Positions 13,363-38,407 of a stretch of 50,894 nucleotides of DNA are shown here, piece after piece; within the stretch, counting starts at the first letter, position 1, and each line of letters begins with the position of its first letter. Under the pieces are notes generated by a model, which saw only the letters and a program-made list of their open reading frames with translations, ran no database searches and was not told where the DNA came from. Origin of the DNA: a virus; the IMG/VR virus record IMGVR_UViG_3300031784_001757, positions 1 to 50,894 of that record; one strand, 5' to 3'. The translations under genes and the position numbers were made by a program.

Positions 13363-13407
13363 GTTATCTCCGTTAGATATAAAAATATTTATAACAGAGA
13401 TAACATG
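13360..13407 (-). promoter_or_regulatory. 16-bp stem-loop masking the start of the kinase gene, with a late promoter in its loop
   Basis: In the minus-strand RNA, CAUGUUAUCUCUGUUA (13407-13392) pairs with UAACGGAGAUAACAUG (13375-13360): 16 pairs, one of them G-U, with a 16-base loop. The 3' arm contains both the Shine-Dalgarno GGAG and the AUG start codon of the gene at 12568-13362. The late promoter TATAAATA at 13393-13386 overlaps the end of the 5' arm, so transcription from it should begin near 13380, in the loop. Such transcripts lack the 5' arm and leave the ribosome binding site free, whereas read-through transcripts should be silent. T4 gene e and soc are controlled this way. Confidence 0.72.
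13386..13393 (-). promoter_or_regulatory. T4-type late promoter TATAAATA before the kinase-nucleotidylyltransferase gene
   Basis: Perfect match to the T4 late consensus TATAAATA on the minus strand. With the usual spacing, +1 falls near 13380 and the leader before AUG 13362 is about 18 bases and holds GGAG. It implies a phage-encoded late sigma factor of the gp55 type, which is outside this window. Confidence 0.65.
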
Positions 13408-13417
13408 TCTGTATATT

Positions 13418-13834: not shown

Positions 13835-13855
13835 ATTAATGTTCCTTTGTAGTAT

Positions 13856-15643: not shown

Positions 15644-15678
15644 AGAGATATTTAGAACTATCCCTATATTACAAAATA

Positions 15679-16503
15679 TTAATTGGGTGGATTCTTACCT
15701 AATGCTTCAAGTAACTTTGCTTTAAGCATACTATCTAATGGGACATTCTGATATATATAAGTTAATATACCACGTACTTGAGTATAACGTTCATCTTTAT
15801 GAGTATGGTTAATAAACACTATACCACACGTTACATAGTTTTCTAAATCTTGTATTTTATAATAATGCGTTAATAGATACCACAATGTCCAACAGTTAGT
15901 TGGATTTGTCTCATACTCGTCCTTCAACATCTTTATATACAATTCAGGACGAGATTGTTTCTTGAAATCTTGGTCATGAATCAAGTAGATATCTTTGTTA
16001 TATATCTCAACTTCATATCTATCTTTATGCTTGAACCAAAGATGTTCATATATGGGTTGTGCCCAAATATAATCATGCCTACGATGTATCTTGTTAGTTC
16101 CTAAAAAGTTAGGTGGACCAACTCTAACGTTTTCAGTATATAAATCTAGTCTATCGCATGAAATATTAGTAACAGTAGGATTTACTTCTATTGTCTTTTT
16201 CATTTCAGTCAATACGTTGATACTAAAATATTCATCTAAGTCAGGACTTAAACACCAATCTACATCAGTGGGAATCATATCTAAGTTATAGTTACGTGCT
16301 ACATTGAATATCCATGGGGTAAATATCTTTTGTTCAATTATAAGATTACTATCTGTTTTTGCAGCCTCTTGAAACTTTTCCCAAGTCCCGTCTGTTGAAC
16401 CGGTATCAAGTATAACTCTGTATGTAAGGTCTTTGGTATAATATAACCATTTCTCTACATATTGTAGCTCGTTTTTACATATTGTGTATGCCGCTGTTTT
16501 CAT
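15679..16503 (-). CDS. Glycosyltransferase, GT2-like
   Basis: A 274-aa family-2-type transferase. TICKNELQYVEKWLYY follows the opening strand, RVILDTGSTDGTWEKF (about residues 29-44) is the classic GT2 nucleotide-binding loop, and WCLSPDLDEYFS (about 83-94) holds the metal-binding DLD. The C-terminal third is helical, with TPR-like spacing (LWYLLTHYYKI), as in other small phage glycosyltransferases of this kind. Its start overlaps the end of the methyltransferase gene upstream by four bases. It belongs to the glycan island; donor and acceptor are unknown. Confidence 0.8.
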   Translation of the reverse strand: MKTAAYTICKNELQYVEKWLYYTKDLTYRVILDTGSTDGTWEKFQEAAKTDSNLIIEQKIFTPWIFNVARNYNLDMIPTDVDWCLSPDLDEYFSINVLTEMKKTIEVNPTVTNISCDRLDLYTENVRVGPPNFLGTNKIHRRHDYIWAQPIYEHLWFKHKDRYEVEIYNKDIYLIHDQDFKKQSRPELYIKMLKDEYETNPTNCWTLWYLLTHYYKIQDLENYVTCGIVFINHTHKDERYTQVRGILTYIYQNVPLDSMLKAKLLEALGKNPPN

Positions 16504-17105
16504 TCTTGTGTTTTGATAAATGCTGTTTGTGATCCGTCAGGGATATTTAATATGTTCAGTTTATGCCAGTTACATTGAATAAACATCTCTACCGCCATTC
16601 GTACACTCATCTGTGCTGATTGTGTACCGTTCTTATCTGTGTAACGCCAAGTAGTAGTATCATCACATAGAATAACTCCTCCTACATGTAGTATCTTCCA
16701 AGCTAATACTAAGTCAGTTAATACTTCACTTGCTTTGTGATCTCCGTCGATGTAGATAAACTCTGCTTTAACATTAGTGTTAATCAAATCCATCAAACCA
16801 TCTGTACTAAATTTTGAAATATATGTTACATTCTTATGTTCGTTTGTTTCGAGGTTATCTAAAAAATTTTGTTTTACTACATTAAAATCTTCACTCATAT
16901 CATTACTGCCGACATGAGGATCAATTGCGTAAATGTTAAGATTCTTATTGTATAGAGTAAGTTGGTCACTCATCCAAAATGTAGTAGAACCTTCGAACAC
17001 ACCCACTTCTACAATTGTGTTAGGTACACCATATGTTTGTACTAGATGACCAATGTTAACCATTGCACCCTTACCGCAATTGAAATCCATACTAAATTTG
17101 TACAT
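16500..17105 (-). CDS. SAM-dependent methyltransferase, class I (Methyltransf_24-like)
   Basis: A 201-aa Rossmann-fold methyltransferase. Motif I is TIVEVGVFEGSTTFW (about residues 30-44), the acidic end of strand 2 is YAIDPHVG (about 79-86), and FIYIDGDHKASEV (about 116-128) plus GGVILCDDTTTW (about 142-153) match the IDGDH and CDD signatures of the Methyltransf_24/CmcI-like group. Such enzymes often methylate sugars or sugar-linked groups in cell-surface and antibiotic pathways. It shares one base with the neighbouring methyltransferase and overlaps the GT2 gene by four, so it lies inside the glycan operon. O-methylation of a surface sugar is the best inference. Confidence 0.8.
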   Translation of the reverse strand: MYKFSMDFNCGKGAMVNIGHLVQTYGVPNTIVEVGVFEGSTTFWMSDQLTLYNKNLNIYAIDPHVGSNDMSEDFNVVKQNFLDNLETNEHKNVTYISKFSTDGLMDLINTNVKAEFIYIDGDHKASEVLTDLVLAWKILHVGGVILCDDTTTWRYTDKNGTQSAQMSVRMAVEMFIQCNWHKLNILNIPDGSQTAFIKTQE

Positions 17106-17710
17106 TATTGCTTTCTATATATAACTATATTTTTTTCAGGATTAATATAGGGTGTTTCTTTGACCTTAGTCAAATGTTTCTCTATCTCAGTAAACACATT
17201 GAAGTTATCGTTATTCCAAATCACGTAACCTTTTTCATCTACATCACTAGGAACAAATCTGTTATCTTCATTTACTAAAACTAAGTATCCATTGGGTTTT
17301 AGCGTGTTGACTAAATTTTCTATCTCTTGTTTTGGATTCTCTACGTGCTGTAATACAAATACTGCTAGACACACATCTATTGAATTGTTGTCAGGTAGCT
17401 GTGATATTATTTTAAACTTACGTGGGTTACTGACATATAATGTAGCAAAAGTTTTCATGCTTTCGCTAATATCATAACCCAATACAGAACAATCAAACTT
17501 GTTTACAATATTTTTACTAACACGTCCCATGCCACAACCAAAGTCTAAAACAATCGATTCGTTAGTAATAATATTTTCGTTAGCTATTATATCAACTAAA
17601 AATTCAGTTTCTTTGCAAAACTTTTCTGGTTTGTCAGCCTCGAAACTAAGAACCACATTCATTGCTTGGGTGATTGTGGTTACATCAAATGTTTCTTTGA
17701 TATATCTCAT
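17105..17710 (-). CDS. SAM-dependent methyltransferase, class I (type 11-like)
   Basis: A 201-aa methyltransferase with motif I IVLDFGCGMGRVSKNIV (about residues 53-69), motif II SVLGYDISESM (about 75-85), then VCLAVFVLQHVENP (motif IV, about 110-123) and LKPNGYLVLVNED (motif V). The order and length fit the Methyltransf_11/25 group. No second domain is present. It overlaps the GT25-type gene upstream by four bases and touches the second methyltransferase gene downstream. Two adjacent methyltransferases of different subfamilies in a glycan operon suggest methylation at two positions, or on two molecules; the substrate cannot be told. Confidence 0.82.
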   Translation of the reverse strand: MRYIKETFDVTTITQAMNVVLSFEADKPEKFCKETEFLVDIIANENIITNESIVLDFGCGMGRVSKNIVNKFDCSVLGYDISESMKTFATLYVSNPRKFKIISQLPDNNSIDVCLAVFVLQHVENPKQEIENLVNTLKPNGYLVLVNEDNRFVPSDVDEKGYVIWNNDNFNVFTEIEKHLTKVKETPYINPEKNIVIYRKQ

Positions 17711-18426
17711 GTTACAAGTTTGTCGTTGCGTTCAGTAGTTCTACCGGTCAATGGTCTAGCAAGAATAGTTGTGTCTGTTGTTACATTAATATTTTTATCA
17801 TAAGCAAACATGCCCTGATGTGTAATGTTGAACAAGTCTGCTCTCATCATAATATCTAATGGAGCACAAATTCCCATCTTCAATACATGAGCAATCAAGT
17901 TCTTTGCCATTAACGGATCGATTGCATATGCATGGGCACGACAGATAAACAGATAGTTAGGGCCTTCACTAGCATGCGGTGGAATAGTTGGATGTATTCC
18001 CCAGCCTTGCTCTGCCCATTCAGCACCACCTAGATAGCATATTGAGTTTACTGAATCATATGATGTAAACTTTTTAGTCATAATGCTATCATGTTCAAGT
18101 ATAACAATAGGCTTATCGATCTTAGCACAATGAATCCACAAGCTGATATGACTTAATGCACAAGCAACTTCACCTCTAGTTAAGTAGTGGTCAGTAATCT
18201 TTAGCATTTTAATAACTGAATCACCTACACTATGATCGGGTACTGTGATTTCAGGGCCAATGCCATTAAAGGCATCCCACACTTTATATTGCATACCTGC
18301 ATTCATACAACTGAGTTGACATCGTTTAGAATACCTCTCAGAAGATTCATTACCTTTTACAGTAATGATGTAAGCGTGTTCTACTTCAAAATCACGCTTG
18401 TAAAATAAATTAAGATTTGTGTCCAT
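17707..18426 (-). CDS. Glycosyltransferase, GT25-like
   Basis: A 239-aa protein resembling family 25 (lipooligosaccharide-type) transferases. It has an N-terminal AYIITVKGNESSERYSKR segment, as in the I-N-L-x-R-x-x-x-R start of the family, LTRGEVACALSHISLW (about residues 81-96), and PIVILEHDSIMT (about 104-115). In most GT25 proteins the last motif reads L-E-D-D, so LEHD is a variant at the metal site; activity may be altered or the second acid may come from elsewhere. The C-terminal half with CAPLDIMM matches the conserved P-x-D region. It overlaps the 573-aa fusion gene upstream by 17 bases. Confidence 0.7.
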   Translation of the reverse strand: MDTNLNLFYKRDFEVEHAYIITVKGNESSERYSKRCQLSCMNAGMQYKVWDAFNGIGPEITVPDHSVGDSVIKMLKITDHYLTRGEVACALSHISLWIHCAKIDKPIVILEHDSIMTKKFTSYDSVNSICYLGGAEWAEQGWGIHPTIPPHASEGPNYLFICRAHAYAIDPLMAKNLIAHVLKMGICAPLDIMMRADLFNITHQGMFAYDKNINVTTDTTILARPLTGRTTERNDKLVT

Positions 18427-20131
18427 CTAGTGCCCGTTTAAATTCAGTATAGTCGATACGACCTGGTTTATGTACTTGAATTAACATTCTAGTTGATAAT
18501 GCTACATTATTCAAGTGATTTAGGGCATGATTAAGTTCTTCTTGGGTGATGGTACCATTTGATAGGCGTTGTTGATATGGGTCAGTGTATTCAAACTGGA
18601 CATCACATACTTCAATATCAATGTCTTCTTCAAATGCTAGTAATGAATCACTTTCACCTTTATTTGCTTTTTCAAACATATGACGTTTGTTAAACAAGTT
18701 AAACATAGCAACCGTAATTAAACGTTTGTGTGTTGGGTCATCTAATGCTGTATCGCATCTCCAATGTGGTGTTTGTATTTCCCAAACAGCACCGTTCTCG
18801 CTTACACGATATAGTTCTTTAATAACATCAATAAAGTCTCTACCAGTCTCACCCAGATGTTCTAAAATATCTTTAGCAACAACGTGTGAGTATTCATTGT
18901 CTTTCCACGGCCAGGGTAGAACGCTTAAATCAACATGTTCATCTGCATCAATGAATGTTGATTTGTCAACGTTAACAAAACCATCAAACTTTTTAAAGCC
19001 ACAACCTAAGTTTAGTTTCTTAGTGATACGATCTTCATCTGGTTGATCGATATGTTTCAAGTTGAAACGTGCTTCTAGTGCAGTATAAAGACTTTGAAAT
19101 GTTGGGTTCCATTTCTTAGGATCGGTTTGTCTAAAGATTTGTACGCACTTATAGTATGGACTTGTGTTAGAATCAGGTGAACCAGATGTCCAAGTATGGT
19201 ATGGAAGAATAGGAACGATGACCCATGTTTCTTTACCCATTGCGGCTGCTAAGTGTGCAACGCTAGTACAAGATGAGATAACAATATCCATGTTAGCAAT
19301 AGCTGCCATTGTATCTTCCCAACTTAACAAGAAATGTTGCAAGTCAGTTACATTCTCTGGCAATTGAATAATGTTATGATCCTTTTGCAAGCTATAAATT
19401 TGTAGTTCATCATACTTTGTTAAGTTAGTAATAAAGTTCTCTGGGAACTTTCTAAATTGTTGATGTTCAAACTTTGGATTACCCGCCCAACGAATACCAA
19501 CTTTAATCTTTTCACTATTGACAAATGTTTTCCAAATTTCTGTACTATCTGGTTTAGCAGTTAAGTATGGACCATTAGGAAAGTCTGAGAACTCATGACC
19601 GGCTACCCAACCGGCACTAAAGCCCGGTACCCAAAAGTCATGAGGTACTGTATGTGCTTGATTGCGTAGTATAACTTGATCCACACCTTCAATACGTTCA
19701 AATACAGAAACTAGTTCAGGGGCACATGCAATGTATACTGCCTTTGCACCTTGCTTCTTAAAGCTAGTTGCAAAACGTGCGTGAATGATTTCATCTCCGT
19801 AACCACCTTCTAGTGATACAATGATAGATTTATTATTGATAGAATGTTTTTCTGGGTTAAAGATTGGTGCATCTGTTTTCAGAGGAGGGCTACCATATAC
19901 ATTTAAGAAACGTCCGTTCTCTAGTAATTGACAACCTTTTTTATAATCACCATCTTGAATTAAGAACCAGCCGCGGTTGAAGCAATGTCGCATCCAAATA
20001 TCTTCAGTATTAACTCCTTTAGCATCTAGTATTTTTTTAGGGCCTATGTTTTCTAATTTGTCTGAAAGCTGTCTGGCCTCTTGATGTTTACCTTCCAATT
20101 GAAGTTTGAGCATCATGTCTATTTCGTGCAT
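18410..20131 (-). CDS. GT9-like glycosyltransferase fused to a SAM methyltransferase
   Basis: A 573-aa fusion with three parts. Residues 1-100 are TPR-like (FNRGWFLIQDGDYKKG at 51-66). Residues 103-355 are a GT-B, heptosyltransferase-like domain with VSLEGGYGDEIIHARF and IVISSCTSVAHLAAAMG. Residues 372 to about 520 are a methyltransferase with KLNLGCGFKKFDGFVNVD and VVAKDILEHLG. The transferase part is a clear paralogue of the C-terminal half of the 595-aa protein at 13856, in which the extra domain is an N-terminal sulfotransferase. The protein should act on a surface glycan. GGAG sits before ATG 20131, and a late promoter lies 63 bases upstream, so this is the first gene of the glycan island. 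Confidence 0.82.
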   Translation of the reverse strand: MHEIDMMLKLQLEGKHQEARQLSDKLENIGPKKILDAKGVNTEDIWMRHCFNRGWFLIQDGDYKKGCQLLENGRFLNVYGSPPLKTDAPIFNPEKHSINNKSIIVSLEGGYGDEIIHARFATSFKKQGAKAVYIACAPELVSVFERIEGVDQVILRNQAHTVPHDFWVPGFSAGWVAGHEFSDFPNGPYLTAKPDSTEIWKTFVNSEKIKVGIRWAGNPKFEHQQFRKFPENFITNLTKYDELQIYSLQKDHNIIQLPENVTDLQHFLLSWEDTMAAIANMDIVISSCTSVAHLAAAMGKETWVIVPILPYHTWTSGSPDSNTSPYYKCVQIFRQTDPKKWNPTFQSLYTALEARFNLKHIDQPDEDRITKKLNLGCGFKKFDGFVNVDKSTFIDADEHVDLSVLPWPWKDNEYSHVVAKDILEHLGETGRDFIDVIKELYRVSENGAVWEIQTPHWRCDTALDDPTHKRLITVAMFNLFNKRHMFEKANKGESDSLLAFEEDIDIEVCDVQFEYTDPYQQRLSNGTITQEELNHALNHLNNVALSTRMLIQVHKPGRIDYTEFKRALDGHKS

Positions 20132-20225: not shown

Positions 20226-23200
20226 TTACTTAGTAATACCGAAGTGGTTGTAACCATTTGATACTGTGCCAGCAGATATACCTACTGCAGTAATTATAGG
20301 TCTTATTGGACGGTTGTCATTGAATCCCCATTCATATAATACATTGTTAGGATCAACTAACAATGTATTATTAAAGTTAGCTGATACTTGTGTCCAAGAT
20401 GATGAGCCAATTTGAGTAGGTATACTGTACATATTAGGTGGTACAAGTGATTGATTATTACCTATTTGTACCGGGCTTGATCTACTAATTCTATCGTTCA
20501 CCCCAAGCTGTCCACTATTATTTAGACCCCATGTAGCCATTTTACCATCAACTATAATCAATCCTTGACTTGCATTATTACTAACGGATAATATTGGACT
20601 AACATAAGTACCTATTTGCACAGGGGCACTACGGGGTACCTGATCACCTAATCCAAGTTGACCACTAGCATTAATACCCCAACCAAATAAGTAACCATCA
20701 CTACGTATACCTAATTGATATCCGTTTTGCGTTGAAATATTAGTCCAGCTATCAGATGTTGTAGGTAAGAATACTGGACTTAAGGCAGGTAATACGGAAT
20801 AAATACCTAATTGACCTGTATTATTTCTTCCCCATGTGTACAATCCATATAATAAATCAAGACCTGTAGTAGAGTCGCGGCCGGCTGATACCATAGCCCA
20901 ACTACTTGTACCAATTTGTACTGGACTACTACGATTTGAAGTATTAGCATCACCTATTTGTCCGTTTGAATTCAGTCCCCATGCAAATAACAATTTATCA
21001 CTGCGTATTCCTGCCGTATGATTAAAACCAGAACTAACAGATGTCCAGCTAAATGCACCAAGTTGTACAGGGCTACTACGCCAACTTATATCATTTAATC
21101 CTAGCTCGCCAGAATTGTTTCCTCCCCAAACGTACAATAGTCCAGTTGAGGTAATTGCGGCTGCGTGGCTCCATCCTGCTGAAATAACACTCCAGCTACT
21201 ACTACCGATCTGTACCGGACTACTTCTAGATAATTGTGCATTATCACCTATTTGACCATTAGTACCTAGACCCCACATAAACAATGCGCCATCACTTCTT
21301 ATGGCTCCACGTCCTCTATTAGAAATACTGAGCCATGTACTACCCGTTGCAATTTGCACTGGACTATTTCTGGATATTACATTATTTTGTGCTAACTCAC
21401 CATTTGTGTTTGCTCCCCAAGCAAATAGTCTATTAGTAGCATCAAGAGCCAAAAAGGTAGCAAGACCAAGTGTTGATGCTACTGCTATCCAACTACTTGT
21501 ACCAACTTGTACTGGACTACTTCTGTTAACTGAATCACCTAATCCCAGTTGACCTACTGCATTATCACCCCAACTCCATAATGTACCATCACTACGTATT
21601 GCAGCCATTGATGAAGTGCCGACAGATACCTGAGTCCAACTACTTGTACCAACTTGTACTGGACTACTACGATGTACTAGGTCATTTAAACCTAGCTCGC
21701 CAGAATTGTTTTGGCCCCACATAAATAGCGCACCATCACTACGAATGGCTGCACTTGTAAGGCTATTTATATTAACTTGACTCCAGCTAAACGCAGCTGG
21801 TTTACTTGTATTGGTTAAGTAAGTTTGTTGTATTTGGGCACTAGTAAATGAGTTAACTTGTACAGGGCTACTTCTATGAATTACTGATCTATCACCTAGT
21901 TGACCATTAGAGTTGCCACCCCAAGTAAACAATAAATTGTTTGAATTAATAGCTCCTACGGTAGAACCACCTGCACTAACCATAGTCCAGCTTGCACCAA
22001 TTTGTACTGGACTACTTCTACTTAATTGTGCATTATCACCTATTTGACCAGTAGTACCTAGACCCCATACAAACAATCTCTTGTCTACTGTCAATGCTGT
22101 GTTGTAAGAGTTACCGGCACTAACTTGTGACCAGCTACTTGTACCAATTTGAATAGGTACTGATTTACTAATAATAGTATTATCACCTAATTGACCATTA
22201 GTACCTAATCCCCAAGCCCATAGTGTATTATCACTACGTATGCCAATTGTTGTGGCTGCACCTGCACTAATTGCATTCCATGATTCAGTTACCGATCGGA
22301 CAAACATCGGGCTACTTCTAGCTCCTATTGTTTCACCTAATCCAAGTTGTCCACTAGAATTTTGACCCCAAATATAAAGTTGTTTATTTGTAAATGAGAT
22401 TGCCATAATTACTCCAGGATTAGTTCCTGAACTAACTTTTGACCAGGTGCTTGTACCAATTTGTACAGGACTACTACGATGCACTGTATCATTTAATCCT
22501 AATTGACCGTTAGTATTAAGTCCCCAAGCCCATAATGTGTTATCCGCTTTTATAGCAGAAGTTGACCAAGCTGAGCCAGCAGATACACTTGTCCAACTAC
22601 TTGTACCAACTTGTACCGGGACAAGCGCACTGGAGGAGTTGCCGGTGCCAAGAGCGCCAAACACGCCAAAACCACAAGCCCATAGCGAGCCGGTGGTTTT
22701 TATAGCCATAAAATATCCTGCACCAGACGAGACTTGTTGCCAATTAGTATCAGTACCAACTTGTACTGGGCTACTGCGTGGGATACCAGACTGATTTTGA
22801 CCGAGCGCGCCGGATGCCGCATCTCCCCAAGACCATAATGTTCCATCTAAGCGTATGCCGTACATATTTGTACTGCCATCTGGGCTGCCTGCACTGATTT
22901 GGGACCAGCTACTTGTACCAACTTGTACAGGACTACTACGATTTATTGTATCATTTAAACCTAATTGACCAGTAGCGTTATTTCCCCAACTAAATAATGC
23001 ACCATCAATACGTAAGGCGGCTGCTATTCCAGTTCCTGCATTAGTACTTCCAGTTCCTCCTGAAATCATAGTCCAGCTACTTGTACCAACTTGCACTGGA
23101 CTACTGCGATGTTCTCGGTCATTTAAACCAAGCTGTCCATTGACATTAGCTCCCCAACTCCATAACGTGTTGTCTATACGAATTGCATAGGTTGCTCCAT

Positions 23201-26200
23201 TACCGACAGATACCTGAGTCCAACTACTTGTACCAACTTGTACCGGGCTATACACAGCAGTAATAGAATTTAGCCCTAATTGACCATAATTATTCAGACC
23301 CCATATAAATAACGCACCATCATTACGTATTGCTGCCAATGTTCCGAGATTGCCGCTTGCACTAATTTGTGTCCAACTAAACCCAGTTTTACCTGTATTA
23401 GTAAGATATGTTTGTTGTATTTGTTCAGTAGTAAACGTACTAATTTGTACAGGGCTACTACGATTAGCAATAGTACCCAATCCTAGCTGGCCTGATCCGC
23501 CTGCTCCCCAACCATATAATAAGTTATCAGAAGATATACCAAATGTAGTAAGGTCTGTAGTAGTTGTTATACCACCTGCACTAATTTGTGTCCAACTACT
23601 TGTACCAACTTGTATCGGGATACTACGATGTAATGTATTATTTGAACCCAAATTACCATCATCATTATCACCCCACGTGAACAATAAGCCATCACTACGA
23701 ATAGCTGCCACATGACCGGCAGATGCTGTTGCTTTAGTCCAACTATATGCAGTAAATGTATTGGCAGCTGTATTACCCCAACCATACAATTTGTTATTTG
23801 TCTGTATACCTACATTATGATAATAACCTGCACTAATTTTACTCCACGCATCAGTACCGATCTTTTTAGGCATTGAAACGTAACTTGCAATTTGTACTGG
23901 GCTACTACGATGTAGCATATCATTTAAACCCAATTGCCCAGAGTTATTGTCACCCCATCCATATAATAATATATTCCCATCATGTGTACCAATGGTAGAA
24001 GTGCTGCCAGCAGAGATAAAAGACCAACTACTAGTACTTATTAATGTTGGAGTACTACGATTCACTGTATCATTTAAACCTAATTGACCATAGCCATTAT
24101 TTCCCCATGCATATAATAATTTGTTACTTGTTCTACCAACCATAAACGAAGTACCAACTGATATTTGAGACCAACTACTAATGCCAACTTGTACTGGAAT
24201 ACTTCTGGAAAAAACAGTATTGTTACCCAATTGACCGCTACTATTAGCTCCCCACGTGAACAATAAGCCATCACTACGAATTGCTGCCGATGCGTAAAGA
24301 CCTTGCATTGATATTTGGTTCCAAGAATCATTCGCAGTACGGATGAAAACTGGGCTACTACGATTTATTGAATCATTTAAACCAAGTTGTCCGATATTGT
24401 TATTTCCCCAACTAAATAGTTGTTTGCTAGTATTTTCTATAGCTACTATATGGTCAGCTAGTCCATTAATGTTGAACCAACTACTTGTGCCAACTTGTAC
24501 AGGACTACTACGATGTATCCTATCATTTAAACCTAATTGACCGTTAGTATTACTACCCCACGCCCACAATGTATTGTCGCTTCGTATGGCTAGTGTCTGA
24601 AGTACTCCTGAAGCAACTGATGTCCAGCTACTTGTGCCAACTTGCACTGGACTACTTCTGTTAAAAATATCATTTAAACCAAGTTGTCCGGTAGTGTTAA
24701 GTCCCCAAGTCCATAAATTATTATTAGACGATATTGCTGCCATAGCCGATTGACCAACTGACACTTGAGTCCAGCTACTTGTACCTATTTGAGTTGGACT
24801 ACTACGATGTATCCTATCATTTAATCCTAGTTTTCCATCAGCATTACTGCCCCATGTAAACAATATACCATTGATACTCAATGCAGCGGTAGCACCATTA
24901 TTAGCTCTAACTTGAGTCCAGCTACTTGTACCAACTTGCACCGGACTACTTCTGTGTATAATATCATTTAAACCAAGTTGTCCGATATTGTTATTTCCCC
25001 AACTAAATAATGCACCATCACTCCTTATTGCAGACACACAATATTGACCGGCTGCAACAATTGTCCAACTACTAGTACCAATTTGTACAGGACTACTACG
25101 ATTTATTGTATCATTTAAACCAAGTTGTCCGATATTGTTAAGTCCCCAAGTAAATAGTGCACCATCAATGCGTACAGCGTATGCAAATTCTTCTGCTCCG
25201 ACTGACACTTGAGTCCAACTACTTGTACCAATTTGTACTGGGCTAGATTTATTAACTGTAGTAGTGTCTCCTAGACCACCCCAAAAGCCTAAACCCCACA
25301 TAAACAATGCGCCATCACTTCTTATGGCTCCGGTAGTAACAGCCCCACTAGTTCCATTAGCACTTATTGATGTCCAACTATAGGTTGATGATCCTGTATT
25401 TGTTAAGTATGTATTTTGTTGTTCAAGGGTGGTTATTGATGTGACTTGCACTGGACTAGATATATTATTGCTGTTTGATCCGATACCCAATTGTCCATTT
25501 GTATTGTTACCCCAAGCCCAAAGTGTACCGTCACTTTTTATGGCACTTACTCCGTAGGATGACCAACGACTATCAATCATTATCCAGCTGCTTGTACCAA
25601 CTTGTACAGGACTACTTCTGTTAAATCCACTTGTGGGCGCATTTATGCCTAACTGTCCGTAAAGATTAGTACCCCAAGTCCATAAACTACCATCATTGCG
25701 TATAGCACCGTTTCCACCTACTATAGTCCATGAATTATCTGTACCAATTTGGGTTGGACTACTACGATGTATCCTATCATTTAAACCCAGGTTTCCATTA
25801 GTATTAAGTCCCCAAGCCCATAATGTACCATCACTACGTATTGCAGTAGTCCAAGATTCGGCAGTATTAACCATAGACCAGCTACTTGTACCAACTTGCA
25901 CTGGACTACTTCTGTTAAAAATATCATTTAAACCAAGTTGTCCGATATTGTTAAGTCCCCAAGTCCATAATGTACCATCACTTTTTATACCAGTAAATTT
26001 ACTACTTTCATTAGTTAAACTAGTCCATGACGATGTGATATCATTAGTTAATAGATAGTTAGTTAACGTTTGTAAACTATCATAAACCCATGGTTGATAT
26101 TGCAATCCCCAACCATATAGTGAGTTATCAGATGCAATAGCTAGTGAGTGTACATTACCTGCACTGATTTGTGACCAACTGCTACTACCAATTTGTGTTG

Positions 26201-29200
26201 GACTACTACGATTTGAGCCGCTATTATCTACTTGATATGAACTATTGTTACCCCAACCAAATAATTGATTAGTACTAGTTAATGCAAGAACGTGATTTAC
26301 ACCTGCACTAACTTGTGACCAACTACTAGCACCAATTTGTGTTGGGCTATTTATGTATGGTGTTGCACCAAGTTGTACAGGACTACTACGAGGTTCTAAC
26401 CAACTACCTGATATAGTTACAGGGTTAAACGGTATACCTAATTGGCCATAATCATTGGCACCCCAGAAATATGCTCTACCATCAGTAGTGATACCACCGA
26501 CTGTTCCAGCGCCGGCATTAACAACAACCCAATTACTTGTACCTACTAGTACTGGGGTACTACGATGTACCTGATCACCTAATCCGAGTTGTCCACCAGT
26601 ATTAAATCCCCAAGTAAATAGTTTTCCATCGGATCTAACAGCGGTTGACATCGACATTCCAGCACCAACACTTATCCAAGAATCATTCATTGAGCGAATG
26701 AATACCGGGCTACTTCTGCTTGTTAAGTTTAATGTACCTAACTCACCGATAGTACCGTTACCCCAAGTAAACAATGCGTTACCTGTATCGGCTGCAGTAA
26801 TACCTAACACGTTAGTAAGGCCAGTTACCATTGTCCAGCTAGTTGAACCAATTTGTAAAGGTGTTAATTTAGAAGTATTAGTACCATCACCGAATGTTCC
26901 ATATGTATTGTTACCCCATGCAAATAGTAAACCATCACTTCGTATTGCCAAAAACCCCATAACAATTAAACCAATTGTAGTCCAAGAATCTGCTACTGAA
27001 CGAATAAATACTGGGCTGGATCTAGAAACAAGAAAACCGTTACCCATTTGACCATTGGAATTGCTGCCCCAAGTAAACAGTTGTCTATTTTGATCAAGTG
27101 CGGTTATCGCAGTACCTGCATTAACGGTAGTCCAACTACCTGTACCTGTAGTAAGAGTAGGGCTATAATAATAAGTTGCTCCTAAGCTATCACCCATTTG
27201 GCCTGCGGTGCCCAAGCCCCACATATATAGTAAATTATTACTTATACCAGCTGTGATTGTACTTGCAGTTACTACACTCCAACTACTTGTACCAATTTGT
27301 ACTGGACTACTACGATGTTGTGTAGAATCCGGAGTTCCTAACACACCATTAGTACCTGCACCCCATGTGAATAATGAGCCTCCACTACGTATAGCTACTG
27401 TCCATGAGGCACCAGATGCTACTTGAGTCCAACTACTTGTACCAATTTGTACTGGGTTACTACGATGTTGAGTAGTACCATCACCTAGTTGTCCAAATGT
27501 GTTTACTCCCCATGCATATAGTGCACCAGTTGTACGTATAGCAGTACTTACATTACCTGCAAAATAAACTTTTGACCATGTGTTTTCAGTACCAATTTGT
27601 ACTGGGCTACTACGATGTATCCTATCATTTAATCCCAGTTGACCTAAATCATTAAAACCCCAACTCCATAATGTACCATCATTACGAACACCTAATATTG
27701 TACCGCCGGATGCGTAGTAGTTAGGGCCTGTTGCAACAGCAGTCCAGATGCTTGCACCAATTTGTGTTGGACTACTACGATGTATCCTATCATTTAATCC
27801 CAGTTGACCTGAATCATTAGAACCCCAACTCCATAATGTACCATCACTACGTATTGCAGCCGTTGTTCGTTCAAATGTTGCTACTGTCAACCAACTACTT
27901 GTACCAACCTGTACAGGACTACTTCTGCTTTGTACATCATTTAGTCCTAATCCACCATAAAATCCTTGGCCCCATGCAAACAATAATCCGTCATTACGAA
28001 TAGCAAACGTTGTATCTTGATTAGTTACTACAGTAGACCAACTGTAGCCAGTCTTACCTGTTTTTGTCAAATATGCCTGTTGTTCTGCAGGTGAAGTGAA
28101 CGAAACAATTTGTACAGGGCTTGTTCGTGCATTAATAGATGAATCACCCAATGCGCCGCCTGATTGTTGACCCCAAGTGAACAATGCACCATCACTACGT
28201 ATAGCACCAGTTGCGGTGGCATTCACACCTACGGCCACAGTAGTCCAATTACTTGTACCAATTTGTACTGGGCTACTACGATGTTGAGTAGTACCATCAC
28301 CTAGTTGACTGGCGCCGCCATACCCCCATGCAAATAATTTACTATCAGTTCGTATTGCAAGTGTGGTATTAATTTCTGCTGACACCAGTGTCCAACTGTT
28401 ACCTGTACCTACTTGTACTGGGCTACTTCTAGCAATAATATCGTTTACTCCAAGCTGACCATAATTATTCAGACCCCAACCATATAACTTACCATCCAGT
28501 GTAATAGCAAAGGTAGATGTAGCAATCCCCCCTATAGATGGCACAAATGACCAACTACTTGAACCAATTTGAACTGGACTACTACGATGTACTAGGTCAT
28601 TTAAACCTAATTGACCATTTGTATTGCTTCCCCAAATAAATAACAATCCGTCACTTCTAATAGCGTAAGTATGACTAACACCAGCAGCAATACCACTCCA
28701 ATTACTTGTGCCAACTTGCACCGGACTACTTCTGTGTATAATATCATTTAAACCAAGTTGTCCGGTAGTATTAAGTCCCCATGCAAATAACTTACTATCG
28801 CTACGAATAGCAAATGAATTAGAGTAACCTGCACTTACTTTAGTCCAGCTCAATGTTCTAGGTTTACCTGTACTAGTTGACCAAGCAATTTCATCAGCTA
28901 ATGTAAACAATGATGTTATTATAACAGGGTTTTCGAATATACCTCCACTACCATTTGTACCTAATTGCCCATTGGCATTGTTACCCCAACCATATAAAAC
29001 ATTGTTATTGTCTAACGCAAGAACGTGATTTACACCTGCACTAACTTGTGACCAACTACTAGCACCAATTTGTACTGGACTACTACGATGTACCTGATCA
29101 CCTAATCCGAGTTGTCCACCAGTATTATTTCCCCATGACCATAGTGTTTTATTGTCATGTATTGCTAGTGTAAAATTGACACCTTGTGTAACTTGGTACC

Positions 29201-32200
29201 AATTATGCGTAGTTGCATTTACCTGCACCGGGCTACTAGTATTTACTACACTGTTAATACCTAATTCACCAACTGTATTACCGCCCCATGCATAGATATA
29301 ACCGTTACCATTACTATTGTCTTGTATTATTCCCATGCGTCCAGCAACCATAGTCCAACTACTTGTACCAATTTGTACTGGGCTAGATTTATTAACTGTA
29401 GTAGTGTCTCCTAGACCACCATACGTGTTGTTACCCCATGCAAATAATGCGCCATCACTACGAATTGCAGAGACTACATATGCACTAACAATATTACCAG
29501 ATTGACTTGAACTAACCATAAGCCAACTACTTGTACCAATTTGTACTGGGCTACTTCTATTTGTAGTGTCATTGATACCCAATTGGCCTGTGGAATTATC
29601 TCCCCAAGACCATAATTTATTATTAATATCAATACTAAAAGCGTTACTAAAACCGGCGGCTAACTTCTTCCATTTACCTGTACCAATTTGTACCGGGCTA
29701 CTGCGATGCACGGTGTCATCTTCACCTAATTCTCCTACTGCATTATCACCCCATGACCATAATGTTCCATCTAATCTTATACCATATGAGGATGAGTCTA
29801 ATCCAGCTACTGCAGAAGTCCAAAATAAATTACCAATTTGTACTGGGCTACTGCGAGCCACAACAGTATTATCTCCTACTTGACCAATAGTATTGGCTCC
29901 CCATGCAAACAATCTGCCATCAACAGTAATACCCACAGGAGTAAGATTTCCTGCAGAAATAACATTCCAGAGACTTGTACCAACTTGTACTGGACTACTT
30001 CTAAGTACGGCGGTTGTATTTGCACCTAATGCACCGACTGAATTATCAGATCCCCATGACCAGAGTGTTCTGTCACTACGTATGGCAAACAAAAATCCAC
30101 GTCCAGCACTAAGTGCAGTCCAACTACTTGTACCAACTTGTACTGGACTACTGCGATGTACTAGATTATTTGTACCTAACTGACCATATGTATTACTACC
30201 CCAAGTCCATAAACTACCATTACTTCGTATACCTGCTGCAGTTTGTGTTCCATCTACCGGCGTACTAGAGCCTGATAGATATGTCCAACTTAATAAATCT
30301 TTACCTAACTGTATTGGCTGTGATTTAGATATAATATTGCTGTCTCCTAATACGCCAGAGTCACCTTGACCCCACAACCATAGTGTATTATCATTTCGTA
30401 TACCTGCAATGTGCAATGAATTAGGAGTTCCTATACCTATACCTGTCCAAGAATCATTCATAGAACGAATAAAGACCGGTGATGATCTATGCGTTGTGTT
30501 GTTCTCCCCTAGTTGTCCGTTGGTGCCAGTGCCCCATGTAAATAATTGCCCTGATGAGTCAATACCCACACTAGTTGATCCTCCACCAGGTACTAGACTC
30601 CAACTACTTGTAGTAATTTGTTGGGGAATCGTTGTAGTACCCGGAACTGATCGACCATTTGCGCCATTATTATACAGCCCCCATTTAAATAATAATCCAT
30701 CACTCCGTATAGCAGAGTACAAATCATCACCTGCACTTACGTATGTCCATGAATCTTTACCTGAAATAATGAATACTGGGCTACTACGTGAAATACTATT
30801 ACCTTCGCCTACATATTGTCCAAGGCCCCAAGACCATAACATACCATTACTGTCAATAGCGGCAGCAAATCCACCTACCATATTCCAACTGTTAGCACCA
30901 CCAATACTTACAGGGCTACTAACGTTAATAGTTTGAGCAATATTAGCACCTAATTCTGATTGTCCATTATATCCCCACGCCCATAATGACCCATCTATTC
31001 GTCTTCCGTACATAGCAGGGTAACCACCGTTAACTTGAGACCATAAATTTGTACCAATTTGAACTGGACTACTACGAGATACTATGTCATTTAAACCTAA
31101 TTGGCCATATGTATTATCACCCCAAGTAAATAATCTGTTATCTGAAGTAATACCCGAGCTAGCATTAAGGTAACTGTTTATCATAGTCCAGCTACTTGTG
31201 CCAACTTGTACTGGGCTACTTCTATAAACTTTATCGTTTAATCCCAGTTGTCCGTATGTATTATCACCCCATGTCCATAAACTACCATCATTGCGTATAG
31301 CCAGGGATTGTGATCCTATAGCGGAGACCATGATCCAGCTACTTGTACCAACTTGCACTGGGCTACTACGCCAATTTGTATCATTTAATCCCAATGAACC
31401 GAGACCGTTATATCCCCAGGCCCATAGTGATCCGTTATTTTTAATAGCCAGAGCCTGAAAGCCACCATTAACATGTGTCCAATTATAATCTGTACCAACT
31501 TGTACTGGACTACTTCTATGAACTTTATCGTTTAATCCCAGTTGTCCGTATGTATTATCACCCCATGTCCATAAACTACCATCATTACGAATTGCAAATG
31601 TAGAACCATTGCCTAATATTGCCGTAGTCCAACTACTTGTACCAATTTGTACAGGACTAGACCTGTCGTTAGTGGAGTTTATACCTAGTTGCCCGTAACC
31701 ATTAGAGCCCCAGGCAAATAATTTACCATCATTACGTATAGCTAACTTATTGGCTGAGCCACCATTTATATATACCCAACTAGTTCCAGTTGAACCTATT
31801 GTAGTTAAATATGAATTATATGAAACTGTTAATGGAGATGTTGTTAGTGCAGTAATTTGTACTGGACTACTTCTTGATATACCATAACCATCGCCAATAT
31901 ACGTTCCATGGCCCCATGTGTATAATTCGCCCCCCGTGGTTATTCCCATAGTCATGTTTTTACCACTAGTAATCATAGCCCAACTATCTATACCAATTAG
32001 TACAGGACTAGACCTGCTGATAGTGGAGTTTATACCTAGTTGCCCGTTTGTATTACTACCCCAGGCAAATAACGCACCACTGACAGTTATACCGGCCATC
32101 ATGTCGGTGCCAGCACTAACCATAAGCCAATTACTTGTACCAACTTGTACTGGACTACTACGATGTACCTGATCACCTAATCCGAGTAGTCCACCAGTAT

Positions 32201-33392
32201 TATTTCCCCATGACCATAACTTTTGATTTGAATCTATAGCGGCACTATTTGGAGAGGGAATACCACCGTTTTGAATCAATTTACTCCAGGTACCTGTACC
32301 AATTTGTACCGGACTACTTCTATGTAGAATATTATTTAAACCAAGTTCTCCAAAAGTATTACCACCCCATGACCATAATGTATTATCTGCACGTAGTGCT
32401 AGTGCAGTTCCGTAACTACCCATGTTTCCATTAACTGAAATACTAGTCCAGCTACTTGTACCAATTTGTACCGGACTACTACGATGTATCCTATCATTTA
32501 ATCCTAATTCTCCATGGGAATTAGATCCCCAAGCAAATAATACACCGTCATTTCTTATAGCAAATAGTGAACCTATTTGATTATATGCTACTGTAGTCCA
32601 ACTACGCTGTGCTATAGCTATACTACTTGTATATGATTTTTGTATTTGAGATGTACTTAATGAACCAGTTAATGTTGGACTGGAAAGCTGTGTGGTATTA
32701 TTGTTACCGGATTGGCCTTGGGAAACATTACCCCAAACAAACAACAAGTTGTCATTACGCACCCCAAAACGACCGCTGGAGGTGCCTGCTGCACCACCTA
32801 ATGCAATCCAACTACTTGTACCAATTTGTACTGGACTACTTCTAGAGATAAGAGTATTATCACCCAATTGTCCTTCACCATTTCGACCCCAAGCCCATAG
32901 TGTGCCATTTGATTTTATAGCTATACTATTAATACCGGTTAATACCTGAGTCCAGCTTGAAGGTTCCCCCCATACTGATGACATACTATTATTACCAAGT
33001 TGACCATTAAAGCCTAAACCCCAAGCATATATTAGTCCATTATAATCAATAGCATAAGAAGTGTCACCGTTAGCACTAACCTTACTCCAATTATTAATCC
33101 CAAGTTGTACTGGGCTACTACGATGTACTAAGGTGACATCATTGTTACCTAATTGACCATATGTATTAGCACCCCAAGCGAATAGTTTGCCATCACTTCG
33201 AATGCCTATTGTATGACTTAAACCGCTTGCTATCTGACTCCATGACTGTGCACCAATCAATGCAGGACTAGATTTAAAAGTTCTATCTTCTGTACCTAAT
33301 TGACCCCATGTATTGTCACCAAACATGTATAATGATTCTACATCTACTCCCGTTGAGGGCTGGACAGTTAATAACCACTTTTCTAATGACAT
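20226..33392 (-). CDS. Giant RCC1-repeat protein, 4388 aa, probable phage adhesin
   Basis: One uninterrupted frame of 13.2 kb. By hand I count about 84 repeats of the RCC1 (beta-propeller blade) type, each about 50 residues, with the pattern WAWGxNxxGQLGLND, HRSSPVQ, GTSSW and AIRSDGxL. Seven blades normally close one RCC1 propeller, so about twelve could line up. Longer inserts with QQTYLTNTGKT occur in some repeats, and another repeat subtype contains FIRSMNDSW. No signal peptide, membrane segment or catalytic domain is visible. It lies in the tail-fibre region and is flanked by tail-associated genes, so an extended receptor-binding or virion-surface protein is inferred. GGTGGG precedes the ATG. 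Confidence 0.85.
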   Translation of the reverse strand: MSLEKWLLTVQPSTGVDVESLYMFGDNTWGQLGTEDRTFKSSPALIGAQSWSQIASGLSHTIGIRSDGKLFAWGANTYGQLGNNDVTLVHRSSPVQLGINNWSKVSANGDTSYAIDYNGLIYAWGLGFNGQLGNNSMSSVWGEPSSWTQVLTGINSIAIKSNGTLWAWGRNGEGQLGDNTLISRSSPVQIGTSSWIALGGAAGTSSGRFGVRNDNLLFVWGNVSQGQSGNNNTTQLSSPTLTGSLSTSQIQKSYTSSIAIAQRSWTTVAYNQIGSLFAIRNDGVLFAWGSNSHGELGLNDRIHRSSPVQIGTSSWTSISVNGNMGSYGTALALRADNTLWSWGGNTFGELGLNNILHRSSPVQIGTGTWSKLIQNGGIPSPNSAAIDSNQKLWSWGNNTGGLLGLGDQVHRSSPVQVGTSNWLMVSAGTDMMAGITVSGALFAWGSNTNGQLGINSTISRSSPVLIGIDSWAMITSGKNMTMGITTGGELYTWGHGTYIGDGYGISRSSPVQITALTTSPLTVSYNSYLTTIGSTGTSWVYINGGSANKLAIRNDGKLFAWGSNGYGQLGINSTNDRSSPVQIGTSSWTTAILGNGSTFAIRNDGSLWTWGDNTYGQLGLNDKVHRSSPVQVGTDYNWTHVNGGFQALAIKNNGSLWAWGYNGLGSLGLNDTNWRSSPVQVGTSSWIMVSAIGSQSLAIRNDGSLWTWGDNTYGQLGLNDKVYRSSPVQVGTSSWTMINSYLNASSGITSDNRLFTWGDNTYGQLGLNDIVSRSSPVQIGTNLWSQVNGGYPAMYGRRIDGSLWAWGYNGQSELGANIAQTINVSSPVSIGGANSWNMVGGFAAAIDSNGMLWSWGLGQYVGEGNSISRSSPVFIISGKDSWTYVSAGDDLYSAIRSDGLLFKWGLYNNGANGRSVPGTTTIPQQITTSSWSLVPGGGSTSVGIDSSGQLFTWGTGTNGQLGENNTTHRSSPVFIRSMNDSWTGIGIGTPNSLHIAGIRNDNTLWLWGQGDSGVLGDSNIISKSQPIQLGKDLLSWTYLSGSSTPVDGTQTAAGIRSNGSLWTWGSNTYGQLGTNNLVHRSSPVQVGTSSWTALSAGRGFLFAIRSDRTLWSWGSDNSVGALGANTTAVLRSSPVQVGTSLWNVISAGNLTPVGITVDGRLFAWGANTIGQVGDNTVVARSSPVQIGNLFWTSAVAGLDSSSYGIRLDGTLWSWGDNAVGELGEDDTVHRSSPVQIGTGKWKKLAAGFSNAFSIDINNKLWSWGDNSTGQLGINDTTNRSSPVQIGTSSWLMVSSSQSGNIVSAYVVSAIRSDGALFAWGNNTYGGLGDTTTVNKSSPVQIGTSSWTMVAGRMGIIQDNSNGNGYIYAWGGNTVGELGINSVVNTSSPVQVNATTHNWYQVTQGVNFTLAIHDNKTLWSWGNNTGGQLGLGDQVHRSSPVQIGASSWSQVSAGVNHVLALDNNNVLYGWGNNANGQLGTNGSGGIFENPVIITSLFTLADEIAWSTSTGKPRTLSWTKVSAGYSNSFAIRSDSKLFAWGLNTTGQLGLNDIIHRSSPVQVGTSNWSGIAAGVSHTYAIRSDGLLFIWGSNTNGQLGLNDLVHRSSPVQIGSSSWSFVPSIGGIATSTFAITLDGKLYGWGLNNYGQLGVNDIIARSSPVQVGTGNSWTLVSAEINTTLAIRTDSKLFAWGYGGASQLGDGTTQHRSSPVQIGTSNWTTVAVGVNATATGAIRSDGALFTWGQQSGGALGDSSINARTSPVQIVSFTSPAEQQAYLTKTGKTGYSWSTVVTNQDTTFAIRNDGLLFAWGQGFYGGLGLNDVQSRSSPVQVGTSSWLTVATFERTTAAIRSDGTLWSWGSNDSGQLGLNDRIHRSSPTQIGASIWTAVATGPNYYASGGTILGVRNDGTLWSWGFNDLGQLGLNDRIHRSSPVQIGTENTWSKVYFAGNVSTAIRTTGALYAWGVNTFGQLGDGTTQHRSNPVQIGTSSWTQVASGASWTVAIRSGGSLFTWGAGTNGVLGTPDSTQHRSSPVQIGTSSWSVVTASTITAGISNNLLYMWGLGTAGQMGDSLGATYYYSPTLTTGTGSWTTVNAGTAITALDQNRQLFTWGSNSNGQMGNGFLVSRSSPVFIRSVADSWTTIGLIVMGFLAIRSDGLLFAWGNNTYGTFGDGTNTSKLTPLQIGSTSWTMVTGLTNVLGITAADTGNALFTWGNGTIGELGTLNLTSRSSPVFIRSMNDSWISVGAGMSMSTAVRSDGKLFTWGFNTGGQLGLGDQVHRSTPVLVGTSNWVVVNAGAGTVGGITTDGRAYFWGANDYGQLGIPFNPVTISGSWLEPRSSPVQLGATPYINSPTQIGASSWSQVSAGVNHVLALTSTNQLFGWGNNSSYQVDNSGSNRSSPTQIGSSSWSQISAGNVHSLAIASDNSLYGWGLQYQPWVYDSLQTLTNYLLTNDITSSWTSLTNESSKFTGIKSDGTLWTWGLNNIGQLGLNDIFNRSSPVQVGTSSWSMVNTAESWTTAIRSDGTLWAWGLNTNGNLGLNDRIHRSSPTQIGTDNSWTIVGGNGAIRNDGSLWTWGTNLYGQLGINAPTSGFNRSSPVQVGTSSWIMIDSRWSSYGVSAIKSDGTLWAWGNNTNGQLGIGSNSNNISSPVQVTSITTLEQQNTYLTNTGSSTYSWTSISANGTSGAVTTGAIRSDGALFMWGLGFWGGLGDTTTVNKSSPVQIGTSSWTQVSVGAEEFAYAVRIDGALFTWGLNNIGQLGLNDTINRSSPVQIGTSSWTIVAAGQYCVSAIRSDGALFSWGNNNIGQLGLNDIIHRSSPVQVGTSSWTQVRANNGATAALSINGILFTWGSNADGKLGLNDRIHRSSPTQIGTSSWTQVSVGQSAMAAISSNNNLWTWGLNTTGQLGLNDIFNRSSPVQVGTSSWTSVASGVLQTLAIRSDNTLWAWGSNTNGQLGLNDRIHRSSPVQVGTSSWFNINGLADHIVAIENTSKQLFSWGNNNIGQLGLNDSINRSSPVFIRTANDSWNQISMQGLYASAAIRSDGLLFTWGANSSGQLGNNTVFSRSIPVQVGISSWSQISVGTSFMVGRTSNKLLYAWGNNGYGQLGLNDTVNRSTPTLISTSSWSFISAGSTSTIGTHDGNILLYGWGDNNSGQLGLNDMLHRSSPVQIASYVSMPKKIGTDAWSKISAGYYHNVGIQTNNKLYGWGNTAANTFTAYSWTKATASAGHVAAIRSDGLLFTWGDNDDGNLGSNNTLHRSIPIQVGTSSWTQISAGGITTTTDLTTFGISSDNLLYGWGAGGSGQLGLGTIANRSSPVQISTFTTEQIQQTYLTNTGKTGFSWTQISASGNLGTLAAIRNDGALFIWGLNNYGQLGLNSITAVYSPVQVGTSSWTQVSVGNGATYAIRIDNTLWSWGANVNGQLGLNDREHRSSPVQVGTSSWTMISGGTGSTNAGTGIAAALRIDGALFSWGNNATGQLGLNDTINRSSPVQVGTSSWSQISAGSPDGSTNMYGIRLDGTLWSWGDAASGALGQNQSGIPRSSPVQVGTDTNWQQVSSGAGYFMAIKTTGSLWACGFGVFGALGTGNSSSALVPVQVGTSSWTSVSAGSAWSTSAIKADNTLWAWGLNTNGQLGLNDTVHRSSPVQIGTSTWSKVSSGTNPGVIMAISFTNKQLYIWGQNSSGQLGLGETIGARSSPMFVRSVTESWNAISAGAATTIGIRSDNTLWAWGLGTNGQLGDNTIISKSVPIQIGTSSWSQVSAGNSYNTALTVDKRLFVWGLGTTGQIGDNAQLSRSSPVQIGASWTMVSAGGSTVGAINSNNLLFTWGGNSNGQLGDRSVIHRSSPVQVNSFTSAQIQQTYLTNTSKPAAFSWSQVNINSLTSAAIRSDGALFMWGQNNSGELGLNDLVHRSSPVQVGTSSWTQVSVGTSSMAAIRSDGTLWSWGDNAVGQLGLGDSVNRSSPVQVGTSSWIAVASTLGLATFLALDATNRLFAWGANTNGELAQNNVISRNSPVQIATGSTWLSISNRGRGAIRSDGALFMWGLGTNGQIGDNAQLSRSSPVQIGSSSWSVISAGWSHAAAITSTGLLYVWGGNNSGELGLNDISWRSSPVQLGAFSWTSVSSGFNHTAGIRSDKLLFAWGLNSNGQIGDANTSNRSSPVQIGTSSWAMVSAGRDSTTGLDLLYGLYTWGRNNTGQLGIYSVLPALSPVFLPTTSDSWTNISTQNGYQLGIRSDGYLFGWGINASGQLGLGDQVPRSAPVQIGTYVSPILSVSNNASQGLIIVDGKMATWGLNNSGQLGVNDRISRSSPVQIGNNQSLVPPNMYSIPTQIGSSSWTQVSANFNNTLLVDPNNVLYEWGFNDNRPIRPIITAVGISAGTVSNGYNHFGITK
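25212..25280 (-). repeat. 69-bp direct repeat within the RCC1 gene, copy A
   Basis: Identical base for base to 29352-29420, 4.1 kb away in the same gene. It spans the SSW-to-SSPVQ part of a blade and its VNK-type variant. Exact identity is more than protein similarity requires and suggests recent duplication or gene conversion. Confidence 0.8.
26284..26340 (-). repeat. 57-bp direct repeat within the RCC1 gene, copy A
   Basis: Identical to 29017-29073. It encodes IGASSWSQVSAGVNHVLAL, a segment next to the YGWG/FGWG-type blades that also mark the very end of the protein. Confidence 0.8.
29017..29073 (-). repeat. 57-bp direct repeat within the RCC1 gene, copy B
   Basis: Second copy of 26284-26340. 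The flanks diverge on the 5' side immediately (DNNN versus TSTN at protein level), so the two share a block and not merely a blade consensus. Confidence 0.8.
29352..29420 (-). repeat. 69-bp direct repeat within the RCC1 gene, copy B
   Basis: Second copy of the sequence at 25212-25280. Both encode a blade with the unusual TTTVNKSSPVQIG variant in place of the common NDxxHRSSPVQ, and the sequence differs immediately on each side. Confidence 0.8.
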
Positions 33393-37396: not shown

Positions 37397-38407
37397 TTAA
37401 GTTGATGAATATCCTGCGGCTGCAAGATAATATCTAGCAGTACCGACACCTGCTGTATCACTTGCAACAACTCCTGTGTTACTTACTAAGTTGGTTATTG
37501 AATATACTACGCCAGAATTATTACCACCATATCCAAAAATAGCCTTATCTGTTCCATAACCTGCGGCTCCTAAACTATCTCTATCAGTACCAACACCTGT
37601 AGTATCAGTAGCTACAACACCTGTGTTTGATACTAGATTGGTTATTGCTGTTACACCAGTACCACCTGAAACTTCGCCATAACCAAATATAGCCTTATCC
37701 CCGCCATAGCCTGCGGCTGCTAAAGTACCTCTAGCAGTACCGACACCTGCAGTATCAGTAGAAACAACACCGGTGTTTGATACTAGATTGGTTATTGATC
37801 GATAAAGTCCACCATTGTTACCATATCCAAATAGTGCTTTATCACTACCATACCCGGCGGCTGCTAGTGAATGTCTTGCAGTACCGACGCCTGCAGTATC
37901 ACTAGCAACTACACCTGTATTTGATACTAAGTTGGTGATTGCGGTTACTGATGCACTAGCTCCATATCCAAATATAGCTTTATCAGTACCATAACCTGCG
38001 GCTGCTAATCCACTTCTAGCAGTTCCTACTCCAGCAGTATCACTAGCAACTACACCGGTATTTGATACTAGGTTGGTTACCGACACACCGAACGCAGCAC
38101 CAGTCCCATATCCAAATATAGCCTTATCACCACCATAACCAGCGGCTGCTAGTGAATTTCTAGGAGTGCCTACACCAGTAACGTCTGCGGCTACTACACC
38201 GGTATTACTTACTAGGTTGGTTATTGATACATAAGCACTAGCGTATCCATATCCAAATATAGCTTTCTGTGTGCCAGGACTAGGCGGCAGAGGCCAGTTA
38301 TTGGCTTGTTTAGCTTGCATCTGTTGAGTAGCGTTGTAAAATCCAGAATTTGATGCGGCATTAACCTGTGTAGCAGACATTACACCGCCATAATATCTTT
38401 TAACCAT
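37397..38407 (-). CDS. Kelch-like six-repeat propeller protein, 336 aa
   Basis: After an N-terminal segment (MVKRYYGGVMSATQVNAASN, with a Pro-rich PLPPSPGTQ) come six repeats of about 43-48 residues: KAIFGYG, a variable stretch, TNLVSNTGVVA, DTAGVGTAR and LAAAGYG. The variable stretch lies right after FGYG in each repeat and is the only part that changes freely, while the rest is nearly constant. The R..xAAAGYGxDKAxFGYG order is like kelch motifs, so a six-bladed propeller with a variable face is likely. It lies among fibre genes, and a receptor-binding role is inferred. A related gene begins beyond the right end (49850-50894). GAGGAT lies 12 bases upstream of the ATG. Confidence 0.65.
   Translation of the reverse strand: MVKRYYGGVMSATQVNAASNSGFYNATQQMQAKQANNWPLPPSPGTQKAIFGYGYASAYVSITNLVSNTGVVAADVTGVGTPRNSLAAAGYGGDKAIFGYGTGAAFGVSVTNLVSNTGVVASDTAGVGTARSGLAAAGYGTDKAIFGYGASASVTAITNLVSNTGVVASDTAGVGTARHSLAAAGYGSDKALFGYGNNGGLYRSITNLVSNTGVVSTDTAGVGTARGTLAAAGYGGDKAIFGYGEVSGGTGVTAITNLVSNTGVVATDTTGVGTDRDSLGAAGYGTDKAIFGYGGNNSGVVYSITNLVSNTGVVASDTAGVGTARYYLAAAGYSST

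Follow-up and report, generated by a model that had tools for sequence, protein, structure and literature searches.

The giant RCC1 gene and its neighbours

The window, the whole stretch of 50,894 nucleotides analysed here (IMG/VR record IMGVR_UViG_3300031784_001757), carries a 13.2 kb gene that a preliminary description had read as one open frame consisting almost wholly of RCC1 repeats, with no other domain. The frame was found to be single and intact from ATG to TAA (4388 aa), but it lies on the minus strand, and the plus-strand translation of 20226-33392 has many stops. A search with the RCC1 profiles proposed in that description gave 76 matching stretches for PF00415 (1808 bits, E = 0) and 908 bits for PF13540. 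No domain other than RCC1 was found by Pfam in the giant frame, which has only a short leader beside its repeats, so that the composition claimed for the protein was borne out. All 79 RCC1 matches obtained in the whole record fall inside this frame. As judged by these profiles and by a blade number that is a multiple of seven, the protein belongs to the RCC1/BLIP-II superfamily of seven-bladed propellers.

The count of 84 blades given previously was reproduced by anchoring on the invariant W-G turn and again with a model built from the window's own repeats (domain E < 0.01). Laxer cut-offs gave 83-86 blades, and blade counts of long arrays therefore carry an error of 1-2. A counter with added regular-expression anchors was dropped because of false blades in single propellers. 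The blade consensus is VSAGASTTLAIRSDGTLFAWGLNTNGQLGLNDTIHRSSPVQIGTSSWTQ (49 residues). An extra insert of ~18-20 residues (roughly FTSxxxQQxYLTNTGKTGxSW) was observed in about seven of the blades. The inserts follow blades 5, 10, 29, 34, 51, 64 and 74, and long inserts were rejected as ring boundaries, since these positions are not spaced by seven. The first blade starts at its third strand (LYMFG); a leader similar to that of the window protein, MLLEKWLL, is present in the related contigs L011 and L158, and an ending like VSNGYNHFGITK was also found in single-propeller relatives.

Table 1. Features of the giant RCC1 gene and of the genes around it in the window
Feature	Position	Strand	Details
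Family 25 glycosyltransferase	17707..18426	(-)	
573-aa protein	18410..20131	(-)	methyltransferase-like region; directly downstream of the RCC1 gene
Giant RCC1 gene	20226..33392	(-)	4388 aa, 462 kDa calculated, 84 RCC1 blades, expected to form twelve seven-bladed propellers
C-terminal strands of the RCC1 protein, VSNGYNHFGITK	20229..20264	(-)	first half of a blade; expected velcro closing the last propeller
Segment modelled as a closed seven-bladed propeller, residues ~503-860	30813..31886	(-)	AlphaFold2 and structural match to UVR8
N-terminal leader, residues 1-19 (MSLEKWLLTVQ...)	33336..33392	(-)	short predicted helix at 4-9, low model confidence there
Tail assembly chaperone, 169 aa	33396..33905	(-)	Phage_tail_APC (PF16778); separated from the RCC1 gene by 3 nt, upstream position conserved in relatives
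Tail-fibre C-terminal domain, 130 aa	33905..34297	(-)	phrog_9017 tail fiber protein
Tail fibre, 979 aa	34328..37267	(-)	gp9-type baseplate connector region close to the N terminus; C-terminal Peptidase_S74 chaperone
Virion/baseplate-type protein, 1610 aa	41167..45999	(-)	six LamG/ConA-like lectin stretches

The order of tail-fibre domain, chaperone and RCC1 gene is repeated in four contigs of divergent viruses (L158, L127, L153 and L125), and in L158 a tail fibre of 2061 aa ends in a domain like the 130-aa piece of the window. The cultured Synechococcus phage BUCT-ZZ01 has a tail fiber protein, a chaperone-like protein and RCC1 in the same succession. A homolog of the 573-aa protein follows the RCC1 gene in L011, L158, L153 and L125. 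Among viral RCC1 genes, a chaperone-like gene lies directly upstream of 19 of 69 that encode multiple propellers versus 0 of 194 that encode a single one. Propeller number differs among the viruses with this cassette, which have 14 blades in BUCT-ZZ01, ~28 in L127, L153 and L158, and 84 in the window. The RCC1 gene thus occupies the position in a tail-fibre cluster that is looked for in a tail-fibre or receptor-binding protein, adjoining a fibre piece and a PF16778 chaperone in a conserved arrangement. A tail attachment domain gave no confident Pfam match in the protein, which has just the 19-residue leader. Given the lack of a recognisable attachment domain, the protein is termed tail-associated and is not filed as a tail fibre.

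Two proteins of another repeat, of the AGYGGDKAIFGYG type, are encoded in the tail region at 37397-38407 and 49850-50530; the former had no match in Pfam. Glycosyltransferase, sulfotransferase, methyltransferase and other sugar-type genes (10779-20131) adjoin the tail genes, and a similar set of sugar-type genes stands beside the RCC1 genes of cyanophage S-SRM01 (L030).

Blade numbers and ring architecture

An ortholog of 4384 aa, also with 84 blades, was found in four IMG/VR contigs from four metagenomes (L009, L011, L016 and L026). These represent one virus, the gene being 99.95-100% identical among them. The window protein and the ortholog share 68% identity, with gaps all of at most 8 residues and no indel of a whole blade, and the blade number has therefore been kept while the sequence changed. 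Since L016 carries the gene for a major capsid protein of T4 type (PF07068, E 1.4e-99), the window most likely derives from a T4-like myovirus of bacteria.

Relatives were taken from viral and bacterial collections, and the same models served to count their blades. In 223 of 270 complete non-redundant viral RCC1 frames the blade number is exactly divisible by seven, with 7 blades in 190 of them, 14 in 13, 21 in 11 and 28 in five, followed by frames with 35, 42, 42 and 49. For uninterrupted arrays of more than eight blades, exact multiples of seven make up 30 of 49 in viruses (binomial p 5e-14 against an expectation of 1/7) and 47 of 50 in bacteria; many other long arrays fall 1-2 blades off a multiple of seven, which is within the counting error. 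RCC1 genes encoding several propellers are frequent in both bacteria and viruses, and the earlier view of RCC1 proteins as single propellers for the most part was too narrow. In single-propeller relatives the chain starts with strand three of a blade and finishes with strands one and two of another, which is the known closing arrangement of RCC1 propellers. Taken together, the multiples of seven and the starts and ends of the relatives within a blade make closed seven-bladed propellers, strung together without seams, the best reading, and a twelve-ring architecture is considered highly probable for the window protein.

A model of residues 1-860 was obtained with AlphaFold2 from 27 sequences, the fourteen-blade relatives being left out because they were misregistered in the alignment. 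Its mean pLDDT was 76.6, with residues ~600-780 at pLDDT >=90. An earlier model of residues 1-1190 from 16 sequences (mean pLDDT 56) was discarded; its structural comparison was middling. In the model of residues 1-860, a closed ring of seven four-stranded blades was formed by residues ~503-860 only. This ring matched UVR8 with Z 46.9 and an rmsd of 1.5-1.6 Å over 325 residues, and HERC2, RPGR and RCC1 with Z 36-44. The confident segment of the model speaks for closed rings. The ring comprises blades 10-16, as compared with blades 8-14 predicted by the N-terminal register, which indicates that the ends of the fragment affect where model rings close. Boundary profiles gave p = 0.15 for the window protein and 0.57 for the ortholog, by a procedure that recovered the known register in just 59 of 111 calibration proteins. 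Window blades that are seven apart were no more alike than others (lag-7 similarity, z 0.4), and hence no trace of recent whole-propeller copying was seen. Structure prediction, suggested in the preliminary description for overlapping pieces of 400 residues, thus yielded for residues 1-860 one closed seven-bladed ring, which is out of the N-terminal register. Of the twelve propellers envisaged there, the number agrees with the multiples of seven in the relatives and with the modelled ring, whereas any exact boundaries drawn between the twelve rings would be putative.

An open solenoid, or one irregular superhelix in place of closed seven-bladed rings, would be in keeping with the absence of linkers between blades, with sequence similarity that has no seven-blade periodicity and with those parts of the two models that are not clearly closed. 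However, such a structure gives no reason for multiples of seven among the relatives, and the one confident segment is a closed ring; we regard it as quite improbable. Still less credence can be given to an artefact in which repeats were collapsed or expanded by the assembler, even for a highly repetitive gene of 13 kb from a metagenome contig. No exact repeat in the gene is longer than 69 nt, its first 1872 nt are matched at 100% identity by an independent contig, and the 84 blades recur in the diverged ortholog, in four contigs. Mis-assembly of the giant gene is thus unlikely.

Long RCC1 arrays of other forms were observed in further contigs. Contig IMGVR_UViG_3300042691_016421 (L155, L296) has three consecutive RCC1 frames of 3289, 3107 and 5169 aa, with about 58, 61 and 98-99 blades. 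At each of the two joints the stop overlaps the start, and proteins one and two both end within a blade, after GQIGNNT and GQLGDGT, which suggests that the propeller string is split over coupled genes, or broken. In L139 (4577-24112), RCC1 frames of 1985 and 4525 aa lie in the same reading frame, joined TAA-ATG, and the first ends within a blade at GQLGF, almost the same place as in L296. L019 (1-25881) has a frame with an open 5' end and a length of >=8626 aa, whose ~75 RCC1 blades are interspersed with other segments, each some 80-770 residues long.

Divergence and proposed function

Between the window and L011, dN/dS was 0.30 for the RCC1 gene, 0.26 for the tail fibre and 0.36 for the LamG protein, and 0.03-0.10 for ten other genes, including those for the chaperone and a glycosyltransferase; as synonymous sites are partly saturated, these values are relative only. 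Loops were assigned to faces on the basis that, in an antiparallel blade of four strands, successive loops alternate between the two faces. In the one ortholog pair, mapped on the modelled blade, 46% of sites were changed in face-1 loops versus 25% in face-2 loops (odds ratio 2.5, p 3e-19, with residues not strictly independent), and all positions with >=60% change lie in face-1 loops. Such one-face variability would be as expected of a binding face under changing demands, although in any protein long loops are the more variable ones.

A single chain is proposed to form twelve seven-bladed RCC1-type beta-propellers, arranged in a virion protein like beads on a string. Each ring would be closed by velcro, strands three and four of one blade pairing with strands one and two of another, and on this proposal neighbouring rings would be linked by a short turn only. 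The protein would be made within the tail-fibre cassette, after the tail-fibre end piece and the tail assembly chaperone, and would be anchored on the tail or on its fibres. It would present twelve binding faces that resemble one another without being identical. The variable loops, concentrated on one face, may bind ligands repeated on the cell surface, probably glycans, and the total avidity would be high. Presence in the virion, site of attachment and ligand are what we infer for the window protein. A structural, receptor-binding role is supported indirectly by the tail cassette, the accelerated divergence of one face, the virion proteomics of relatives and the occurrence of RCC1 on T7-type fibres. 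A multivalent tail adhesin with twelve propellers, each with its own variable face, is on balance the probable function.

The same architecture could serve another end, such as decorating the virion or tail, spacing, or stiffening or shielding a fibre, with no part in host binding. The identification by mass spectrometry of coliphage W70 RCC1 proteins W70_237-239 (phrog_4219) in virions (PMC11370258), and of Cronobacter phage GAP32 gp1 as a virion protein (PMC5259590), does not prove binding, and the conservation of 84 blades at 68% identity suggests that a fixed length matters. Against decoration, the rate of divergence of the RCC1 gene resembles that of the tail fibre and LamG genes, the variability is biased to one face, and T7-type fibres carry RCC1 at their receptor-binding end, so that a purely decorative or mechanical function is judged unlikely. 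RCC1 proteins of phages have also been given an intracellular part, acting on DNA or on host regulation, as implied by the name regulator of chromosome condensation and by the PHROG category DNA, RNA and nucleotide metabolism, and as proposed by the authors of the phAPEC6 study, who suggested a DNA-ordering role (PMC7247149). The place of the gene in a tail cassette, the finding of the W70 proteins in virions, the joining of RCC1 to a T7-type tail-fibre domain in relatives and a rapid divergence specific to the gene all argue against such a part, which would seem very unlikely for the window protein.

If the adhesin reading is correct, reach and valency would scale with the number of propellers in a modular receptor-binding design. 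Tentatively, since the odds appear slightly against it, T4-like viruses may have a whole class of modular multi-propeller adhesins with one to at least a dozen RCC1 rings per chain, varying by whole seven-blade units and with a variable face to each ring. The heads of such an adhesin would be lectin-like and strung in a row, in contrast to the trimeric tip that is usual in tail fibres. The blade numbers in sevens amount to a simple architectural rule.

Comparison with known RCC1 proteins

Phage RCC1 proteins, long ones included, are already known from databases under a misleading name, and RCC1 tail fibres exist. Databases file the phage RCC1 proteins under chromosome condensation or nucleotide metabolism, whereas the evidence here puts the multi-propeller group in the tail cluster. 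No papers on RCC1 propeller strings as tail proteins, or on a rule of sevens, were found in the open literature searched. A search of predicted viral structures matched RCC1 proteins of uncultured phages, tail fibres of PollyC and Littlefix, and GAP32 gp1. The idea that RCC1 proteins give rise to tail whiskers was dropped, as phage CBB has whiskers yet lacks a homolog of GAP32 gp1 (PMC5259590).

The solved seven-bladed domains of UVR8, HERC2, RPGR and human RCC1 have the same fold as the confident segment of the window protein (Z 36-47), but each has one ring per solved domain and a eukaryotic role, with none in a virion. Multi-propeller RCC1 proteins of bacteria (Hymenobacter, Chryseobacterium, Myxococcus and others) likewise have blades in multiples of seven, from 14 to 35; they are encoded by cellular genes and, in a sample of 79 loci, form shorter strings than that of the window.

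Among phages, the window protein strongly matches phrog_4219, and this family, phrog_7220 and phrog_16766, which take in W70_237-239 and with which GAP32 gp1 may be compared, have the same repeat. Phages of the W70 type have several short RCC1 genes, whereas in the window 84 blades are fused in one gene beside a tail chaperone. In the Pseudomonas phages PollyC (gp38) and Ppr_SeaP3 (SeaP3_12), a T7-type tail-fibre N-terminal domain, for which the PF03906 match in PollyC is slightly below the cut-off, is followed by C-terminal RCC1 repeats at the tail-fibre locus. The repeats are shared with the window protein and lie distal to the attachment domain, but there is about one propeller per chain, as against 84 blades in the window protein, which lacks any recognisable domain of this kind. 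The RCC1 protein of BUCT-ZZ01 (UTS52180.1, annotated as a BNR repeat domain protein) is likewise multi-propeller and is encoded in the same order of tail fibre, chaperone and RCC1 as in the window, with 14 blades as compared with 84.
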